From: Verrucomicrobiota bacterium
GTDB taxonomy: Bacteria; Verrucomicrobiota; Verrucomicrobiia; Limisphaerales; JACDHS01
Reading direction: 5' to 3'
DNA: 53,425 bases
NCBI GenBank assembly: GCA_013820875.1
Contig: JACDHS010000014.1
Location: forward strand, 1 to 53,425
Positions 637 through 39,299 of the stretch are shown piece by piece. A model generated the notes under the pieces. The model worked only from the letters and a program-made list of their open reading frames with translations, searched no databases and had not been told where the DNA came from. The stretch's first letter is position 1; each line of letters begins with the position of its first letter. Position numbers and translations under genes: made by a program.

Positions 637-2001
637 CTAAACGGCAGTGCCCTCGCTTCCAGCAGTTCGGACCGGCATCAGCAACACTTTATCCACCCGG
701 TGGCCATCCATATCCACCACCTCAACGTGATAACCGTTCATCTGGAAGGAGTCGCCTTCGTGCGGCACATGGCCTAACTGTTTTATGACAAACCCTGCAA
801 ACGTCTGGTAATCCCGATCGGGTTTTTCGTGCAACGCAAAACCTGTTACCACGCGCTCGAACTCATCGGCATCCAACATTCCGTCCACCAGCCATGAACC
901 GTCATCCCGGCGTTTTGCCGCGGGTTTCAGCCTTTCATTCGAGCTGGGCAACTCACCGATGATTGCCTCCATAATATCATGCAGCGACACGAGGCCGCTG
1001 ATGCCGCCGAATTCATCCGTTACGAGCGCAACGTGTTTCCCTGTCTTTTTGAATTGTTCGAGCAACGTGTTCGCGGTCACGAACGCGGGAACAATCATGG
1101 GCGGCACCATCAAATCGCGGATGCGAGGCGGAACGCCAGCCGCGAGGTTGGCATAAATCGACTTGATGGAAATGATGCCAACCACATTGTCGCGCTGGTT
1201 GCCTTCGTAAACTGGAAAGACTGTATGACCGCTCACCACGATTTTGTGCCAGACGGCATCATGTGAATCGGCGACATTGATCCAAATGATCTTCGCTCGC
1301 GGTGTCATCAGTTCCCGCACTGGCAGACGATCCAGCGCCAGCACCCCTTCCACCATCGCCGGTTCATGCGGCAGAAAAACACCCGCCCGAGTTCCCTCGC
1401 TCACCATCAGCCTCACCTCATCCTCAGTGACGGTCACTTCTGGTTCGGGTTTGATTGACAGGAGTTTCAGCAACTTATCGGTGAACCAACTCAGGACGTT
1501 CACAATGGGCGAGGCGAGAATGGAAAGCTTTGTCATCGTCCCCGCCAGAAGCCGGGCAATTCCCTCGGGGTTTCCCAACCCGAGACGTTTCGGCACCAAT
1601 TCGCCAATGATCAGCGTGAAAAAAGTTAAAGCGCCGACCACCAATGCGAATGCAACTTTGTTGGCATAGGGAGCAAGCCAGGCAATTTCTCGCAGTGGCT
1701 CGGCGAATTTCGCAGCCAGGGTCGCTCCACCGAAAGCTGCGGCAATCACTCCAATCAGCGTGATACCAATCTGCACGGTTGCGAGAAAGCGATTGGGCGA
1801 CTCGGCGAGTGCAAGGGCAGCACGCGCCCGGTCGTCTCCGCTTTCTGCCAGGCGACGCAACCGGGACTTTCGAACAGACACCACCGCGATCTCTGTCATC
1901 GAAAACACCCCGTTCGCCAGCAGCAACGCAAAGATGATTGCCACTTCAAATGCAATTGAACTCATTCGGAGCGACGGTAACGGATTCAGAAAAGAAACCA
2001 A
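637..2001 (-). CDS. CNNM/CorC-like membrane protein (DUF21, CBS pair, CorC_HlyC)
   Basis: This is a polytopic inner-membrane protein of the 'hemolysin family' CNNM/CorC group. Relatives have been linked to Mg2+/Co2+ export or resistance; haemolysis is only a historical label. The 454 residues match the usual length. The order is a DUF21 membrane domain (about 15-200, four hydrophobic segments, with the family-typical GVFSMTEIAVVSVRKSRLRR after the first), a cytosolic CBS pair (about 225-345) and a C-terminal CorC_HlyC domain (about 360-445) with a DEFGG motif in between. The start at 2001 lies only 19 bp from a repeat element. The ATG at 1965 would put the first membrane helix nearer the N-terminus, as in most relatives, and is equally likely. 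The transported ion cannot be read from the sequence. Confidence 0.9.
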   Translation of the reverse strand: MVSFLNPLPSLRMSSIAFEVAIIFALLLANGVFSMTEIAVVSVRKSRLRRLAESGDDRARAALALAESPNRFLATVQIGITLIGVIAAAFGGATLAAKFAEPLREIAWLAPYANKVAFALVVGALTFFTLIIGELVPKRLGLGNPEGIARLLAGTMTKLSILASPIVNVLSWFTDKLLKLLSIKPEPEVTVTEDEVRLMVSEGTRAGVFLPHEPAMVEGVLALDRLPVRELMTPRAKIIWINVADSHDAVWHKIVVSGHTVFPVYEGNQRDNVVGIISIKSIYANLAAGVPPRIRDLMVPPMIVPAFVTANTLLEQFKKTGKHVALVTDEFGGISGLVSLHDIMEAIIGELPSSNERLKPAAKRRDDGSWLVDGMLDADEFERVVTGFALHEKPDRDYQTFAGFVIKQLGHVPHEGDSFQMNGYHVEVVDMDGHRVDKVLLMPVRTAGSEGTAV

Positions 2002-2019: not shown

Positions 2020-2409
2020 GGCCTGCCTGAAAATGGGTGGAACGGGCTACCAGCCCGTTGTCGGCGGCAACCTGCCGCCGACTCTTCGGGTGACGGACAA
2101 CACACTAAATGGTTGTGTTAACCTATGAACTCGGCGGGCTAGAAAAAACAGAACTATAGAGTCGAGTTGCCGCTTTGCGGCAGGCCCGCCGCCACGGGCT
2201 GGTAGCCCGTTCCACCCGGATGAACCGGGCGGCTCTTTTTTTAACAGGGTGGCACGGGCAACCTGCCCGTGCTGGCGGGCTACCAGCCCGCCAGCTTCAG
2301 CGTGAGTAACACACAACAGATGGGGGAGTCGTCGGGTGCGTTGGGAGATCGGCGGCAGGTTGCCGCCGATAACGGGCTGGTAGCCCGTTCCACCCATTTC
2401 AGACAGGCC
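2020..2409. repeat. 390-bp element of ACC-triloop hairpins with ~61-bp terminal inverted repeats
   Basis: The outer ~61 bp (2020-2081 and 2349-2409) are near-identical inverted copies. Inside and within these ends are seven perfect stem-loops whose loop is always ACC (GGT on the other strand): 2041-2059, 2061-2081, 2194-2210, 2252-2272, 2271-2295, 2349-2369 and 2371-2389. Stem arms are 7-11 bp and differ between hairpins while the loop does not change. The right end lies 6 bp after the helicase stop codon, so the element fills the gap between two genes. It resembles REP/BIME or MITE-type non-coding elements. No transposase is present. A minus-strand frame at 2047-2397 is just translated repeat. 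Confidence 0.8.
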
Positions 2410-2415
2410 TAGCCG

Positions 2416-5400
2416 CTATTCGGACGTGTCTTCCAGGAGAAAATGCAGATCGTCCAATGTCAGGCTTTGAGCAAACTTTTCCTCTCCAAGAACATCATCG
2501 GCCAGGGCGGATTTGGTTTTCTGCAACTTCCGGATTTTCTCCTCGATGCTGTCTTTGATCAACAAACGGTAAGCGATGACATTGCGATGCTGGCCGATAC
2601 GATGCGTTCGATCGATGGCCTGGTTTTCGACCGCGGGGTTCCACCATGGATCAAAAAGAACCACGTAGTTTGCCGCCGTCAGGTTCAAGCCGAACCCACC
2701 CGCTTTGAGGGAAATCAGAAACAGCGCTTCCCCTTCTGCGTCCTGGAATCGTTGCACGAGATCGCCGCGATTCTCCGTCGCGCCGGATAGATAGAACGAG
2801 GGCCAACCACGTTTTTTAATCTCCTCCTGGAGAATGTCGAGCATCTCGACGAACTGCGAGAAGATCAGCACCTTGTGACCTTCCTCCATCAATGGCTCAA
2901 GCTGTTCGAGCAATGCTTCCACCTTGGCGCTTTCAGCTTTGGAATCAGGTTTGACGAGTCTTGGATGACAGCAAATCTGCCGAAGGCGCAATAGTGAGGT
3001 AAGGAAATTAAAACGTTCCTTCGCGAGTTGTTTCTGGGTGGAGATTCGCAGGAGCATTTGTTGCGCGCGTTTCAATTCCGCCCGGTAAAGCGTCTTTTGC
3101 TCCCCTTCCATTTCGCAGGACAAATCTTCCTCAATGCGATCCGGCAGATCCCGGGCCACTTGCGATTTCGTCCGGCGCAAAAGAAATGGACGAACCCGCG
3201 ATGAAAGTCGGCGACGCGCAAAAGGATCGTCCTTCGCATCATAGAGTTTGGCGAACTGCGCGCGGCTACCCAGGATGCCTGGCATGGCAAACGCCATGAG
3301 ACTCCACAAATCCAGGAGCCGATTCTCAATCGGAGTGCCGGAAAGAACGAGCCGATGCTCAGCGACCAAAGCGCGGGCGATCTGCGCTGTCTGCGAACTG
3401 GGGTTTTTGATGTATTGTCCTTCGTCGAGAATCACCGCCAACCAACGCACCGGCGTGAGACTTTCGCCAATTAACCGGAGTTGATTGTAATTGAGCACAT
3501 GGACATCGGCTTCACCAAGCCGGTCAACCACCTGGTATAATTCTCCTGCGGACCACATCTTCACGCGCAACCCCGGCGTAAATCGCCCGACCTCCGCGCG
3601 CCAGTTATCCATGACACTCTTCGGGCAAACAACCAGCACAGGAGGAATAGAAACGGTCGCTTCATCAGCCTGCCGTGTTCCACGCAACCACGTCAGCCAG
3701 GTAAGCGCTTGCAACGTTTTTCCCAAACCCATGTCATCGGCCAGGATGCCGCCAAATCGGTTCTCAGCCAGGTAAGCGAGGAAATGATAACCTTCCGTTT
3801 GATACGGACGCAACGTGGCGCTGACTCCCTCCGGCTGTTCGGGCGTCACGCGCGCTTTGATTTCCCCGGCGCGACGCTGGATCTTTTCAAACTGTTCCTC
3901 CGGCAAAAATTTCTTCGCCGCAGGATCCGCCAATTGCAATGCATGTAACCGTTGTGGCTCGGAGGTCAACTCACGGGCCGTCAACCCGAGCCGGGCCATT
4001 TGTTCATCTTCTTCCGGGCTCAGGTTGAATTGCAATTTGCGCCATCCCTTACCCTTGATCCGCACATAATCGCCGCGCGCGTCGAGCAGGAGTTTCAATT
4101 CCTGAGGCGTCAGCGTCGTATCCGAAACATCGAGCACGACGCGCAGATCGAACCAATCCATTTCCTTTTCTTCGACCGCAAGCCGCACACTCCCCGCCAC
4201 TGGATCCGCTATGAGCGAAGCCAGTTCACCTTTCAATTCCAGCTTCACATCCGTTGGAAGAGTTTTGGCCCAGTTGGCGAACAGCGCCGGAAACTTTTTG
4301 GTGACGCGCATGCGCCATTCATTTTGGTAACCATCCCATTTCGCCTCCAGCCCCAACATCAAAGCGCGCGGATCGCGCAACGCCCCCCGATCGTAAAGCG
4401 TGATCGTCCCAGTCCTGTTTTCGTGTGCCGACTCAGTCGCTTTATCGGAGCGGGACCAATACCCGTGCCATGCCTCAATCAGTTTTCCCGCAGGAGAACA
4501 AGCGCCGATTTTGATCACACATTCTTCAACGTTGCTACCGGGATAGCTGTTTGCCAGTTCGCAGGAGATCACTCCAAAAAGGGAGACGTTGCGAATGCGA
4601 TTTTGCAAACGAGGCGGCAACGCGACCCCGACGGAATGCAATAGAGCGGCTCCGGCGCGACTTTCGAGCGCAGGAGCGGGAATGATATTTTCGCGGTTTG
4701 GCGCCAGAACACCACCTTCGACCGTCGGTCCCTGAAACACGGCCTCTCGAGTAATATAAAGAGCGGGACGCCCCTCCAACACACAGAGCACCGGCGGAAT
4801 CGGCGAACCATCCGCCTGGGTCACTCGCAGGCGATAATCGTCACGATCGGTTTCCGCCAGGTCGAGTTGCCAGCGCAATGCGGGGAGGGAGCGATCGAAT
4901 GGCTTTCCCTCTGGATTTACCAGCAGCGCATCGAAGGCAGGCATGCGGAACATGCGGCCAAACTTTTCCAATGAATAAGATTCCGTGTAGGGCACCTCAA
5001 TGCTGCCGACCGAATCGAGGCGTCGCAGAAAAATTTCCCATAACCACTCAGCTTCCGCCGAAAGCGTCACAAAACCTTTGCCATTATCCTCCCGGAATTG
5101 CTTCACCTGGCTGACCTTCGGTTGCTCAAACTCATCGAATCGGCGCCATTCCAGCACGATGGATTTCTCACCAAACTTTGCACGCATTTCGCACAACTCC
5201 CCGACCGTGCTCCCCGCGGTTGAAGACCAGCGTTGTGCGCTCTCCAGGGTTTGAGTCCAGCGGTCAATCTCACGCGTCCGCCGCCAATCCCGCAGGCGAT
5301 CCTCGATTTCGCTGAAGTCAGTGACCGGCAACATGAATTCCGGGATCGGCATTCCGCGCTCGCGAAGAGCGTTCGCCACATACAGCCAAAACAACCGTTC

Positions 5401-5976
5401 ATTGGCAGGAAAGGCAGGCCATATATGCAACGCTTCATAGCCGAATCCACCGAGGCGCAGCCCCATTTCATCGAAATCCCAGCGAGTGATCTTGCGAGTT
5501 CCTTCACACCCTGCGTAAACCTTCTCCACCTTTTGGACAAACAAGGATTCCTGCGGGGTCAGAGGCCGTTTATTCGCTTCTTCCAACTGTTCCTCAAGAG
5601 AAATTGTGACGACCTGTTTTCGAGGCTTCTTTTTTTTGGTGGTCACTCTTCCCGGACCAGCACTGAGTTGTCGGACTTTTTCAGCACTGCTTTCCGCCAG
5701 CAGTGCTTTCATCGCTGCATAAACATGTTTGCAACCGGAAGCCAATGGGCAACCGCAACTGGCACTCCACCCCCTCCCGTGACCGTAAACCAGATTAACC
5801 GTATAGAGTTCCGTGCCTCGAACTGTCGCAGAAAAGTGGTTGGGTTTGTCCAGTTCGATCTGGGTAACCCGTCCCTGGTGAAAATACTTTTCACCCCTCA
5901 CCTGCGCTCGCGAATCCAGGCTGGCCATAAAAGAATGGGCCGAGGCCAGACCGGGAAATTCAGGTGGTACATTCAT
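2416..5976 (-). CDS. SWIM zinc finger SNF2-family DEAD/DEAH helicase
   Basis: This is a cytoplasmic Swi2/Snf2-type ATPase that probably translocates on duplex DNA. Bacterial members (RapA- or HepA-like) act in transcription recycling or repair, but the substrate is unknown for this subfamily. It has 1186 residues. A SWIM zinc-binding motif (C74, C76, C82, H84) sits near the N-terminus, followed by a long middle region typical of bacterial SWIM/SNF2 proteins. The helicase core begins near 700: Walker A ADDMGLGKT at about 745, motif II as DEGQ at about 848 (usual in bacterial SNF2 in place of DEAH), SGTPIENR, then the C-terminal RecA lobe with LKAGGFGLNL and DRTHRIGQ near 1110. The start at 5976 gives a complete N-terminus. 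No partner gene adjoins it, so it appears to be a stand-alone gene. Confidence 0.93.
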   Translation of the reverse strand: MNVPPEFPGLASAHSFMASLDSRAQVRGEKYFHQGRVTQIELDKPNHFSATVRGTELYTVNLVYGHGRGWSASCGCPLASGCKHVYAAMKALLAESSAEKVRQLSAGPGRVTTKKKKPRKQVVTISLEEQLEEANKRPLTPQESLFVQKVEKVYAGCEGTRKITRWDFDEMGLRLGGFGYEALHIWPAFPANERLFWLYVANALRERGMPIPEFMLPVTDFSEIEDRLRDWRRTREIDRWTQTLESAQRWSSTAGSTVGELCEMRAKFGEKSIVLEWRRFDEFEQPKVSQVKQFREDNGKGFVTLSAEAEWLWEIFLRRLDSVGSIEVPYTESYSLEKFGRMFRMPAFDALLVNPEGKPFDRSLPALRWQLDLAETDRDDYRLRVTQADGSPIPPVLCVLEGRPALYITREAVFQGPTVEGGVLAPNRENIIPAPALESRAGAALLHSVGVALPPRLQNRIRNVSLFGVISCELANSYPGSNVEECVIKIGACSPAGKLIEAWHGYWSRSDKATESAHENRTGTITLYDRGALRDPRALMLGLEAKWDGYQNEWRMRVTKKFPALFANWAKTLPTDVKLELKGELASLIADPVAGSVRLAVEEKEMDWFDLRVVLDVSDTTLTPQELKLLLDARGDYVRIKGKGWRKLQFNLSPEEDEQMARLGLTARELTSEPQRLHALQLADPAAKKFLPEEQFEKIQRRAGEIKARVTPEQPEGVSATLRPYQTEGYHFLAYLAENRFGGILADDMGLGKTLQALTWLTWLRGTRQADEATVSIPPVLVVCPKSVMDNWRAEVGRFTPGLRVKMWSAGELYQVVDRLGEADVHVLNYNQLRLIGESLTPVRWLAVILDEGQYIKNPSSQTAQIARALVAEHRLVLSGTPIENRLLDLWSLMAFAMPGILGSRAQFAKLYDAKDDPFARRRLSSRVRPFLLRRTKSQVARDLPDRIEEDLSCEMEGEQKTLYRAELKRAQQMLLRISTQKQLAKERFNFLTSLLRLRQICCHPRLVKPDSKAESAKVEALLEQLEPLMEEGHKVLIFSQFVEMLDILQEEIKKRGWPSFYLSGATENRGDLVQRFQDAEGEALFLISLKAGGFGLNLTAANYVVLFDPWWNPAVENQAIDRTHRIGQHRNVIAYRLLIKDSIEEKIRKLQKTKSALADDVLGEEKFAQSLTLDDLHFLLEDTSE

Positions 5977-12366: not shown

Positions 12367-13467
12367 GTGAACGACGAACCTTCAACACCACCCAACACCA
12401 CGGGACCAGAGTCACCTGCGCCGCTCGAGAAAGCGCATCGGCGTCGCCCACGCTACTCGGGAAAAAACCCACGGAAGTTCGAAGACAAATATAAAGAACA
12501 CAACCCGCAAAAATACACCGATACTGTGGACAAGGTTCTCGCATCCGGAAAAACGCCAGCGGGATCGCATCGATCCATCATGGTAACGGAGATTCTCGAG
12601 GTACTTGCCCCGAAGCCAGGGGAGATGGCTGTCGATTGCACCCTGGGATACGGCGGACATGCAAAAGAAATCCTCGCGAAGATTGGACCCGGCGGACGTT
12701 TGCTCGGCTTTGACGCAGATCCGATCGAACTACCAAAAGCTGAAGCCCGTCTGCGCGCGTTGGGATTCGGCCCGGAGACATTCACCGTGCATCGCAGCAA
12801 TTTCGCAGGCATTCCCCAAGTGCTGGCAAGCGTCGGAATTCCTGGAGCCGATGTGATCCTCGCTGATCTTGGACTTTCATCCATGCAGATTGACGATCCT
12901 GCCCGCGGTTTTTCCGTGAAGTTTGAAGGGCCGCTCGATATGCGAATGAACCCGCAGCGCGGACAACCCGCATCAGCATTTCTGGAGAGAATAAAATCGG
13001 AGGATCTTGCCTCGTTGCTCGTGGACCATAGCGATGAACCGCGAGCGCGGGAAATTTCCACTGCCATTGCAGGTCGAAGATTTGAAACCACAACGCAACT
13101 CGCTTCCGCGATTCGCGCGACCCTTCCACGTCTGTCCAAAGATGAACAAACACTTTCGATCCGTCGTGTGTTCCAGGCATTACGCATTGCCGTGAACGAT
13201 GAATTCTCCGCGCTCGATACGTTCCTCCGCAATTTGCCGGAGTGCTTAAACGCAGGCGGGCGCGTTGCGATTCTGACATTTCATTCCGGGGAAGATCGTC
13301 GTGTGAAGAAGGCATTTGATGCCGGACTGCGCAACGGAATCTACAGCAATATTTCTCACGAGGTGATTCGCCCCTCAGCAAAAGAACGAAATGAAAACTC
13401 GCGCTCGGCTCCCGCAAAAATGCGCTGGGCACAAAAAATTTCTGAAGGTTCGCTGCCAATTGTTTAA
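12367..13467 (+). CDS. rsmH: 16S rRNA m4C1402 methyltransferase RsmH
   Basis: RsmH methylates N4 of C1402 in 16S rRNA, in the decoding centre, using SAM. The 366-residue protein uses a GTG start at 12367. The SAM site is VDCTLGYGGHAKEIL (about 92-106), followed by LLGFDADP. DVILADLGLSSMQIDDPARG (about 160-179), DMRMNP and a C-terminal ILTFHSGEDRRVKKAF are diagnostic for RsmH. The first ~75 residues form a basic extension (RRRPRYSGKNPRKFEDKYKE) absent from E. coli RsmH. The gene stands apart from any mraZ-fts-mur (dcw) cluster, where rsmH usually lies. It diverges from the UbiD gene with 107 bp between starts. TATAAC at 12356-12361 sits so close to the GTG that a leaderless message is possible, though no good -35 is visible. 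Confidence 0.93.
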   Translation: MNDEPSTPPNTTGPESPAPLEKAHRRRPRYSGKNPRKFEDKYKEHNPQKYTDTVDKVLASGKTPAGSHRSIMVTEILEVLAPKPGEMAVDCTLGYGGHAKEILAKIGPGGRLLGFDADPIELPKAEARLRALGFGPETFTVHRSNFAGIPQVLASVGIPGADVILADLGLSSMQIDDPARGFSVKFEGPLDMRMNPQRGQPASAFLERIKSEDLASLLVDHSDEPRAREISTAIAGRRFETTTQLASAIRATLPRLSKDEQTLSIRRVFQALRIAVNDEFSALDTFLRNLPECLNAGGRVAILTFHSGEDRRVKKAFDAGLRNGIYSNISHEVIRPSAKERNENSRSAPAKMRWAQKISEGSLPIV

Positions 13468-13852: not shown

Positions 13853-14716
13853 GTGCAAAAGTATCGAATCGGAATCATCGGCGGCAGCGGGTTGTATCAC
13901 ATCGAAGGTTTTACAAAACAAAAGTGGGTTAAAATAAAAACTCCTTTTGGTATTCCTTCCGACGATTTCCTCACGGGCGAACTTTCCGGGCGTGAAGTCG
14001 TTTTCCTTCCAAGGCACGGTCGAGGCCATCGCATTCTCCCGAGTGAACTCAATCATCGCGCCAACATCTGGGGAATGAAAAAGCTCGGGGCGCAATGGAT
14101 CATCAGCGTGAGCGCGGTTGGATCCCTCCAGGCGAAATACAAACCCTGCGACATCGTCCTGCCCAATCAATTCTTCGATCGCACAAAACGTTCTTTCGAA
14201 CACACTTTCTTCGGCCGCGGCATTGTCGCGCATGTCGCTTTCGCCGATCCGATCTGTGAAGAGTTACGACAGATTCTTCATAAGAATGCCAAAGCTCTGA
14301 AAGCCCGAGTCCATAATGGCGGCACTTACGTGAACATGGAAGGCCCGGCGTTCAGCACCCGCGCCGAATCGCTGACGAATCATAGATCTGGGTACGATGT
14401 CATCGGCATGACCAATCTCGGCGAAGCCAAATGCGCGCGCGAAGCAGAAATCGCATACGCCACCATGGCAATGATCACGGATTACGATTGCTGGAAGACT
14501 GACGAAGAACACGTGACCGTGGATATGGTTCTCGCCAACTTGAAACGCAACGCCGAACAGGCCAAAGCCATTGTTGCCAAATCGATTTCACAAATTCCCA
14601 TTGAACCGAACTGGCCCTGCCACAGCGCACTCCACAACTCGATCATGACCGGCAAAGAATTCTGGCCGGCAAAAACAAAGAAAGAGCTGGAGCCGCTTTT
14701 GAAAAAATATTTGTAA
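13853..14716 (+). CDS. mtnP: S-methyl-5'-thioadenosine phosphorylase (MTAP type)
   Basis: This enzyme phosphorolyses 5'-methylthioadenosine to adenine and methylthioribose-1-phosphate in methionine salvage after polyamine or related synthesis. The 287 residues match the usual length, from a GTG start at 13853. IGIIGGSGLY at the N-terminus and PRHGRGH (about 47-53) form the phosphate site. SAVGSLQ, then GGTYVNMEGPAFSTRAES (about 157-174), GMTNLGEAKCAREAEIAYA and TDYDCW follow. The D-x-D in TDYDCW marks adenosine-type specificity as in eukaryote-like MTAP, in contrast to Asn in guanosine/inosine phosphorylases. The start lies 13 bp after the preceding terminator's T-run, so the promoter must overlap that terminator or the H1-like gene. 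No other salvage genes adjoin. Confidence 0.92.
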   Translation: MQKYRIGIIGGSGLYHIEGFTKQKWVKIKTPFGIPSDDFLTGELSGREVVFLPRHGRGHRILPSELNHRANIWGMKKLGAQWIISVSAVGSLQAKYKPCDIVLPNQFFDRTKRSFEHTFFGRGIVAHVAFADPICEELRQILHKNAKALKARVHNGGTYVNMEGPAFSTRAESLTNHRSGYDVIGMTNLGEAKCAREAEIAYATMAMITDYDCWKTDEEHVTVDMVLANLKRNAEQAKAIVAKSISQIPIEPNWPCHSALHNSIMTGKEFWPAKTKKELEPLLKKYL

Positions 14717-15140: not shown

Positions 15141-16522
15141 ATTTCCCCACAAGCATGGCTCAAAAGATTGGCGCATCGTTCCGAGATCCCAACGGGTTCA
15201 TTACAGAACATCAAGGCGAGTTCCTGCGGGTTGTGCAGCCATCATACGCTGCCAATTACGATCTCCTTCTCGGATCAGGATTGTATGACTCACTCGTAAA
15301 ACGCGGACTTCTCATTCCACACGAGGAGATTCAGCGCGGCACCGCATTTCCTGACGCCTACAAATTACTCAAGCCGCAGCAACTCTCTTTCATCTCCTAC
15401 CCATATGAATGGTGCTTTAGTCAATTGAAGGACGCTGCTCTTGCCACGTTGGAAATACAGAAACTGGCTATAGCACATGGCATGAACCTGAAGGACGCGA
15501 CCGCTTACAACATCCAATTTGTTGAAGGCCGCCCCCTGCTGATCGACACATTGTCATTCGAAAAACTCGAAGCGAAGCCGTGGATTGCCTATGGACAGTT
15601 TTGCCGACACTTCCTGGCGCCACTCGCGCTCATGAGTTATCGCGATGTTCGGCTGTCCCAATTGCTCCGGGTGCATCTCGATGGCATTCCGCTGGAACTC
15701 GCGAGCAAACTTCTTCCGACACGCAGCCGGTTGAAACTTTGGTTGCTCATCCACTTACATCTTCATTCTGCCAGCGAGCGAAAGCTCGGCGATAAGCGCC
15801 TGGATCGGAGTGCTCAGCAAAAGTACAGCATCAAGTCTCTGGAAGGATTGATCCAAAGTCTTGGAACCGCGATCGAAACATTGAGGTGGGAACCACCGAA
15901 AAATGTCTGGGGTAATTATTATGAGGAAACGGTCACGCCGGGAAAATATGTCGGGCACAAAAAAGAAATCGTCTCCCAATTCCTGCAAAGCGCAAAGCCC
16001 GCAGTAGTTTGGGACTTGGGCGCCAACACCGGATTATTCAGCCGCCTAGCTGCCGAAAATGGAAGTTCAGTTCTCTCCTTCGATGGGGATCCTGATTGCG
16101 TGGAGATCAACTACCTCGAAGCGCGCAAAAAAAATGAAAAGAGAATATTACCTTTACTCATGGATCTTGTGAACCCGAGTCCCGCCCTGGGTTGGGACAA
16201 TTCCGAGCGGATGCGGTGGTTGGAACGGCACACTCCAGACCTGACGATTGCGTTGGCCCTTATTCATCATCTGGCGATTGGAAACAACCTACCGTGGCAA
16301 CAACTCGTTGAGTTCTTTCATAAGATCTCTCCACGACTCATCATCGAGTTCGTTCCAAAAAACGATCCGAATGCGCAAAAACTTCTCCGGGTTCGTGAAG
16401 ATATTTTTACGGACTACACGCGAGAAAAGTTTGAAGAAGCATTCTCAGAGCGGTTCGAAATAGAAGCGGCAGCAGCCGTTGAAGATTCGGAACGCAAAGT
16501 GTACCTGATGCGCCGACTATGA
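15137..16522 (+). CDS. Class I SAM-dependent methyltransferase-like protein
   Basis: A 461-residue cytosolic protein. The N-terminal ~270 residues carry a conserved-looking region (FRDPNGFITEHQGEFLRVVQ near the start, FVEGRPLLIDTLSFEKLE near 120) of unknown function. The C-terminal part is a Rossmann methyltransferase: motif I VVWDLGANTGLFSRLA (about 288-303), an acidic residue in SFDGDPD for the SAM ribose, then LALIHHLAIGNNLPW and PRLIIEFVPKNDP. The GTG at 15137 overlaps the previous stop; the ATG at 15155 is an alternative. The next gene overlaps by 4 bp. The substrate is unknown. The setting beside a sulfatase-like membrane protein suggests a surface glycan or lipid. Confidence 0.8.
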   Translation: MNFPTSMAQKIGASFRDPNGFITEHQGEFLRVVQPSYAANYDLLLGSGLYDSLVKRGLLIPHEEIQRGTAFPDAYKLLKPQQLSFISYPYEWCFSQLKDAALATLEIQKLAIAHGMNLKDATAYNIQFVEGRPLLIDTLSFEKLEAKPWIAYGQFCRHFLAPLALMSYRDVRLSQLLRVHLDGIPLELASKLLPTRSRLKLWLLIHLHLHSASERKLGDKRLDRSAQQKYSIKSLEGLIQSLGTAIETLRWEPPKNVWGNYYEETVTPGKYVGHKKEIVSQFLQSAKPAVVWDLGANTGLFSRLAAENGSSVLSFDGDPDCVEINYLEARKKNEKRILPLLMDLVNPSPALGWDNSERMRWLERHTPDLTIALALIHHLAIGNNLPWQQLVEFFHKISPRLIIEFVPKNDPNAQKLLRVREDIFTDYTREKFEEAFSERFEIEAAAAVEDSERKVYLMRRL

Positions 16523-39269: not shown

Positions 39270-39299
39270 AAAACGCAGCCCTTAGTCAGGCTGCGTTTT
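39270..39299 (-). terminator. Rho-independent terminator of gap
   Basis: AAAACGCAGCC (39270-39280) pairs perfectly with GGCTGCGTTTT (39289-39299) around an 8-base loop. On the minus strand the stem is followed by T-rich sequence (complement of the A-run 39266-39272). It lies 24 bp after the gap stop codon and could work in both directions. Confidence 0.88.

Follow-up and report, generated by a model that had tools for sequence, protein, structure and literature searches.

The element at positions 2020-2409 of the window, by which we mean the whole 53,425-nt stretch of a Verrucomicrobiota contig analyzed here, is very probably a pair of neighboring, non-autonomous REPIN-like elements that belong to a GTGG-type REP family and are served by a RAYT encoded within the alaS gene on contig 66 of the same genome (G000; 5.70 Mb, 239 contigs). 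Beyond this single case, we put forward, with belief and doubt evenly balanced, that a Verrucomicrobiota RAYT lineage consists of stop-free cassettes that enter loops of alaS, recG, thrS, and metH in frame by targeting or by a homing-like exchange, are translated unspliced as domains, and sustain REPs with matching hairpin loops, the loop serving as an identity code.

Two inverted pairs of double hairpins

The initial annotation had described seven perfect stems closed by ACC or GGT and an inverted repeat of about 61 bp formed by the ends, and both are real. The seven stems are 7-11 bp long, with the triloop ACC (four) or GGT, its form on the other strand (three); 5,000 dinucleotide shuffles gave a mean of 0.04 and a maximum of two triloop stems of at least 7 bp. 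The ends are complementary over 51 nt without gaps (98%, 2031-2081 with 2349-2399) and over ~61-62 nt with gaps (95%, 2020-2081 with 2349-2409). The element is built from a 48-nt unit, GGGTGG followed by two hairpins with the common core GGCW-ACC-WGCC, which is present in four copies of alternating orientation:

2041-2059, 2060-2082, 2194-2210, 2252-2272, 2271-2295, 2348-2370, and 2371-2389: the perfect triloop stems
2020..2034, + strand: left outer tract, GGCCTGCCTGAAAAT, copied ahead of GGGTGG in some units
2035..2082, + strand: REP unit A (GGGTGG 2035-2040, hairpin 1 2041-2059, hairpin 2 2060-2082, both loops ACC), covariance-model score 78.5 bits, E = 3e-13
2129..2217, - strand: REP unit B, inverted (CCACCC 2212-2217, hairpin 1 2194-2210), 51.5 bits
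2142..2183, - strand: 42-nt insert nested within the hairpin-2 loop of unit B, CTGCCGCAAAGCGGCA...TTTTTTC
2218..2246, no strand: spacer between the two REPIN-like halves
2247..2295, + strand: REP unit C (GGGTGG 2247-2252, hairpin 1 2252-2272, hairpin 2 2271-2295), 70.9 bits
2348..2395, - strand: REP unit D, inverted (hairpin 2 2348-2370, hairpin 1 2371-2389, CCACCC 2390-2395), 77.9 bits
2396..2409, - strand: right outer tract, ATTTCAGACAGGCC, an inverted copy of the left outer tract

Because the units are oriented +, -, +, and -, A/B and C/D form two inverted pairs. The hairpins number seven, eight minus one, because hairpin 2 of unit B is interrupted: between its arms (2129-2141 and 2184-2192), the loop is pushed apart by the 42-nt insert, which has a TTT-loop hairpin of its own (2168-2182). 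The whole element takes up the intergenic space from a CNNM-type gene (637-2001, minus strand) to an SNF2-type helicase gene (2416-5976, minus strand). Between the two halves, CCCGGATGAACCGGGCGGCTCTTTTTTT (2216-2242) resembles an intrinsic terminator. Elsewhere in the window, a lone 11-bp perfect hairpin, AAAACGCAGCC-CTTAGTCA-GGCTGCGTTTT, lies at 39270-39299.

Dispersed units with covarying stems and a conserved loop

The covariance model found ~76 REP units in G000. BLAST gave 98 matches of the element, including A/B-like copies of ~190 bp, and the pattern GGCWACCWGCC occurs 123 times, compared with 18 in a reversed control. The units thus combine the two marks of GTRG-REPs, a palindrome tagged at one end (GGGTGG before hairpin 1) and a high copy number, and the A/B and C/D pairs have the REPIN arrangement of two inverted REPs with a spacer.

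Among 26 distinct aligned units, 97.3% of pair cells are paired and 9 of 17 pairs show two-sided changes, giving a covariation score of 0.436 versus 0.117 (SD 0.017) after shuffling; the units were picked by tag and hairpin, which biases toward pairing and not toward two-sided change. GTGG is invariant in these units, which were selected by that tag, and the inner GGC/GCC of hairpin 2 does not vary among them. Of 42 units, 37 have ACC as the loop of hairpin 1; the others have ACT (2), GCC (1), ATC (1), and ACG (1). Stems that differ around an invariant loop had been the initial description. The outer pairs do vary, but the inner GGCW/WGCC is constant, so the stems do not differ freely; likewise, the ACC loop is conserved but not invariant across the genome. 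Because the loops are conserved and the stems covary, the copies show neither random loops nor a lack of covariation, the two outcomes named at the outset as speaking against recognition of the loop.

Two smaller features recur outside the window element. The outer tract GAGCCTGTCTGAAAAT, with up to 5 mismatches, precedes GGGTGG in 11 of 48 G000 units, compared with 0.4% of shuffled flanks; it may mark a region where cleavage occurs or belong to an extended subfamily. The core of the 42-nt insert has 15 copies in G000 and none in a reversed-pattern control. Most of the copies that we read sit in REP hairpin-1 or hairpin-2 loops, and one (L009) has an unrelated left flank; perhaps the insert is a mini-element that aims at REP hairpin loops.

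A RAYT flanked by ACC units on contig 66

Our transposase search, which covered the Y1 class, gave seven matches in G000. One of them is bordered on both sides by inverted GGGTGG double hairpins with ACC loops, the kind of matching copies that the initial annotation had proposed to look for:

G000:C66:13330-13827: RAYT, between unit 13281-13328 (+ strand) and unit 13853-13900 (- strand)

This protein carries the HUH motif PDHVH and the tyrosine motif KFQYVCGNPW. It matches the REP_Tyr_transpos model NF047646 at E = 3e-20 and 72.4 bits, under the NCBIfam cut-off of 80, which the RAYT of a relative (L157) exceeds with 85.0 bits. A profile of 47 relatives had E. coli TnpA_REP (4er8) as its top PDB match (E = 1e-5), and an AlphaFold model (pLDDT 87) aligned to 4er8 with Z = 13.5 over 139 residues, the next match being IS608 (Z = 10.5). 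Within G000, ACC-unit flanks were seen only at this RAYT, which is most likely the cognate enzyme of the window element.

Other Y1 matches of the genome have other surroundings. The RAYT on C239 (L035, G000:C239:9540-9824) has double hairpins with GGAA/TTCC tetraloops on either side, which make up a second REP family of G000. Another match (L032, G000:C73, near 15444-15785) lies among six copies of a CCCAGGCC-AGC/GCT-GGCCTGGG hairpin.

The contig-66 RAYT and its hairpins lie in frame inside alaS: AlaRS domains precede and follow them in a single 1133-aa open frame, and the flanking hairpins are part of what is translated (GGTGYQPVAAGNLP... and ...AAGQVARQNGLVARSTQ). This alaS is the sole alanyl-tRNA synthetase gene detected in G000; 13 genomes, G000 included, have one alaS match set each. 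We considered two other ways in which the frame could be used. An intein was rejected, as no HN[CST] splice junction was found near the C-terminal end in any of 19 alaS inserts. An internal start was rejected for G000, where the sole in-frame candidate ahead of the RAYT core is a TTG. The AlphaFold model of the whole AlaRS-RAYT, built with 18 sequences, was poor (pLDDT 63.5, pTM 0.34), and what it supports is just a folded RAYT part (451-592) between linkers of low predicted confidence.

RAYTs in frame within housekeeping genes

Scanning GTDB species genomes with the RAYT alignment gave 78 loci, nearly all in Verrucomicrobiota or allied MAGs. The locus counts describe this RAYT subfamily only, because the scan relied on two of its peptide patterns. 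At least 69 of the 78 loci are in-frame RAYTs inside alaS, recG, thrS, or metH. With G000 counted and with hosts assigned automatically and domains checked on examples, the hosts are recG (31), alaS (29), thrS (5), and metH (5), next to 6 free-standing RAYTs and 3 that are unassigned or cut. Of the 69 strong RAYT matches seen in 387 genomes of the phylum, 34 were located in open frames of 600 aa or more; long frames alone prove nothing.

The alaS insertions use loop 2 (23) or loop 1 (6). The recG loop lies between RTAARQE...PLPLF and PQIIVGTHALLYE, and the thrS loop between SMFPPMELRE and RYYLKAMNCPHHH. In alaS, recG, and thrS alike, different RAYT clades share the same insertion loop. The exact insertion nucleotides vary or cannot be told, and the points shift by some residues within the loop.

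Several individual loci deserve mention. Two RAYTs occur in one AlaRS frame, one per loop, in L112 and in G052:C141 (L061); the two in the G052 AlaRS differ in hairpin loop type, CCCT and ACC. In L157:329-5185, a metH RAYT lies between the homocysteine and pterin domains together with many REP-like peptides, at an insertion site that differs from that of L127, L143, L145, and L148. By reading, we also placed more distant RAYTs in frame within a DinG-type helicase (L069) and PriA (L070), with other repeat peptides on their flanks.

Hairpin loops follow the RAYT

Hairpins flank each of the in-frame RAYTs. In 48 of 61 loci, those on the 5' and 3' sides have identical loops (shuffling gives 8.9 on average and at most 20), and 12 changes account for the loop class on the RAYT tree, compared with 40 after shuffling. 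A clade of RAYTs with GCY loops spans recG and metH, and one with CCCT loops spans alaS and metH. When seen in the flanks alone, this agreement could partly reflect co-inheritance of the flanks.

For dispersed copies, we preferred the unit model R1 over simple loop patterns because the latter are noisy: TCC and CCCT cores are common also in genomes in which no matching RAYT was found. R1 units occur in all 6 genomes with an ACC-clade RAYT (G000 74, G052 105, G010 79, G028 27, G014 16, and G033 8) and in 10 of the 52 that lack a close one (p = 2e-4). Those ten genomes weigh against the reading of the units as served by such a RAYT, as does G033, which has few units despite its ACC-clade RAYT and in which the simple loop pattern is not enriched. 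In G052, where the same gene carries a CCCT RAYT as well, CCCT cores are in excess (125 versus 23). The agreement between RAYT and dispersed copies argues for use. Loop conservation, together with the match between loop and RAYT clade, suggests that the RAYT recognizes the loop.

Discordance with host-gene trees

The vertical inheritance usual for RAYTs was not found here: the RAYT class is incongruent with the AlaRS and RecG trees. On an AlaRS tree built without the RAYT, the hairpin loop class is scattered as if shuffled (12 versus 10.7), and the set inserted in alaS loop 2 needs 9 changes on the AlaRS tree versus 2 on the RAYT tree. The AU test rejected grouping the ACC carriers into a single AlaRS clade (p = 6.5e-7), and likewise the CCCT carriers (p = 3.4e-9). 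The RecG tree needs 8 changes versus 2 on the RAYT tree and 7.6 after shuffling. All these are quick trees, and MAG errors are possible in single loci. Since the RAYT class is discordant with both host trees, REP-RAYT-REP cassettes appear to have been inserted repeatedly in the same loop, and the pattern in the sequences would fit repeated entry or exchange at tolerant loops of host genes.

It is also possible, if somewhat doubtful in our judgment, that RAYTs insert everywhere and are kept, or recognized by us, only in tolerant loops of conserved genes, with neither targeting nor exchange between lineages. Insertion points that differ by some residues within a loop would be expected from such survivorship, as would the use of several host genes and of a second loop in alaS. 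It accounts less well for the occupation of the same alaS, recG, and thrS loop by different RAYT clades, combined with the discordance from host trees. Survivorship and mobility are compatible and can both be true together.

Other readings of the window element

The reading of the element as REPIN-like and served by the contig-66 RAYT has to be weighed against three others. The alaS-RAYT might be a frozen passenger, with the dispersed ACC units being old debris or moved by another RAYT. G000 does have further RAYTs (C239 and C27), and some relatives hold units without a close RAYT. However, the contig-66 RAYT is the only one in G000 at which ACC-unit flanks were seen, and the C239 RAYT has GGAA/TTCC loops. 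The proteins also look maintained: by strict motif, HxH is intact in 76 of 79 and the tyrosine in 77 of 79, and RAYT dN/dS is mostly 0.03-0.16 in pairs with unsaturated dS and enough divergence, the closer pairs having been used because dS is saturated in several others. We therefore regard a frozen passenger as unlikely.

It is very unlikely that the hairpins are a functional RNA acting in transcripts between the SNF2 helicase and CNNM genes, as a terminator, an mRNA stabilizer, or a 5'-leader control, and retained for that role. The element fills the gap between two same-strand genes, and as a whole it folds much better than shuffled sequences (z = -19). But single REP units fold well as DNA too, the ~76 units are dispersed in varied contexts, two of them are translated inside alaS, and units flank a transposase. 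All Rfam matches are far below gathering scores, and with nothing at that level, a small RNA processing unit, the other function initially suggested, gained no support. A classical MITE of a DDE transposon, to which the near-perfect inverted ends of 51-61 nt might point, is hardly credible, as these ends are double hairpins that also occur alone and in other arrays, border a Y1 RAYT, and are extended in just 11 of 48 units.

The REP/RAYT idea of the initial annotation, by contrast, is supported by the units, their covariation, the conserved loop, and the unit-flanked RAYT; loop recognition and transposition themselves are inferred. Once single-stranded, a GGGTGG-tagged double hairpin would serve as a substrate of the Y1/HUH RAYT, which may read its tag together with the invariable inner stem and the ACC loop, cut beside the double hairpin, and mobilize the segment between two inverted units. 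The contig-66 RAYT would act on the window element in trans and could be made as a domain of AlaRS or released from it. A stop-free cassette in an essential gene should be hard to lose, which suggests how the RAYT and its REPs stay alive.

Comparison with known systems

Opitutus terrae is known to have GTGG-tagged REPs as well as REPs located within genes (PMC3733652). The GTAG-20 family of that species resembles the window family in its short GTRG-tagged hairpins (mostly GTGG), short loops, and dimers, and also in its RAYT association and the location of some units within genes (PMC3733652). In contrast to GTAG-type REPs, the window unit places two hairpins with a common ACC loop behind a single tag, and the RAYT lies in frame in a host gene. 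The REPIN/RAYT systems of Pseudomonas fluorescens share two inverted REPs with a spacer, a dispersed and non-autonomous character, a cognate RAYT with matching flanks, and compensatory changes (PMC3116915, PMC8049555). RAYTs have been described as single-copy, vertically inherited genes (PMC8049555), whereas the RAYT class here is incongruent with the host-gene tree.

Binding and cutting of single-stranded REP hairpins by TnpA_REP is strand-specific, and loop positions matter in two of three systems, being required in those of Stenotrophomonas and Marinomonas (PMC8266576). The contig-66 RAYT has the HUH motif, the tyrosine, and the same predicted fold as the TnpA_REP proteins (E. coli 4ER8, Stenotrophomonas, Marinomonas), but it is 15-17% identical to 4ER8 and is encoded as a domain within a housekeeping enzyme. 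Rickettsia palindromic elements (RPEs) are palindromic repeats in frame inside functional genes (PMC3733652). The alaS insert is similar in this respect but carries an intact RAYT. RPEs are not known to have a transposase. Inteins and homing endonuclease genes lie in frame in conserved enzymes, at the same position across lineages, with trees that disagree with those of their hosts. The RAYT cassettes share the in-frame insertion, the recurrent position, and the tree discordance; they differ from inteins in the missing HN[CST] junction (0 of 19 alaS inserts), the REP-hairpin flanks, and the HUH/Y1 nuclease.

Significance

RAYT cassettes in frame within housekeeping genes appear to be undescribed so far; the open-access literature yielded neither a RAYT located in a synthetase or other housekeeping gene nor an intein-like transposase. 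How RAYTs persist, although they are not seen to make copies of themselves, is an open question for REP systems. If a RAYT is housed in frame in an indispensable gene, most frameshifts and deletions there would also break the host gene, which would be a simple answer. The discordance with host trees makes these RAYTs mobile, unlike those described before. The many matched pairs of RAYT and loop in one protein family would make a recognition code directly testable. Finally, in many Verrucomicrobiota a DNA-transposase domain is part of AlaRS, RecG, ThrRS, and MetH, which annotation may misread.
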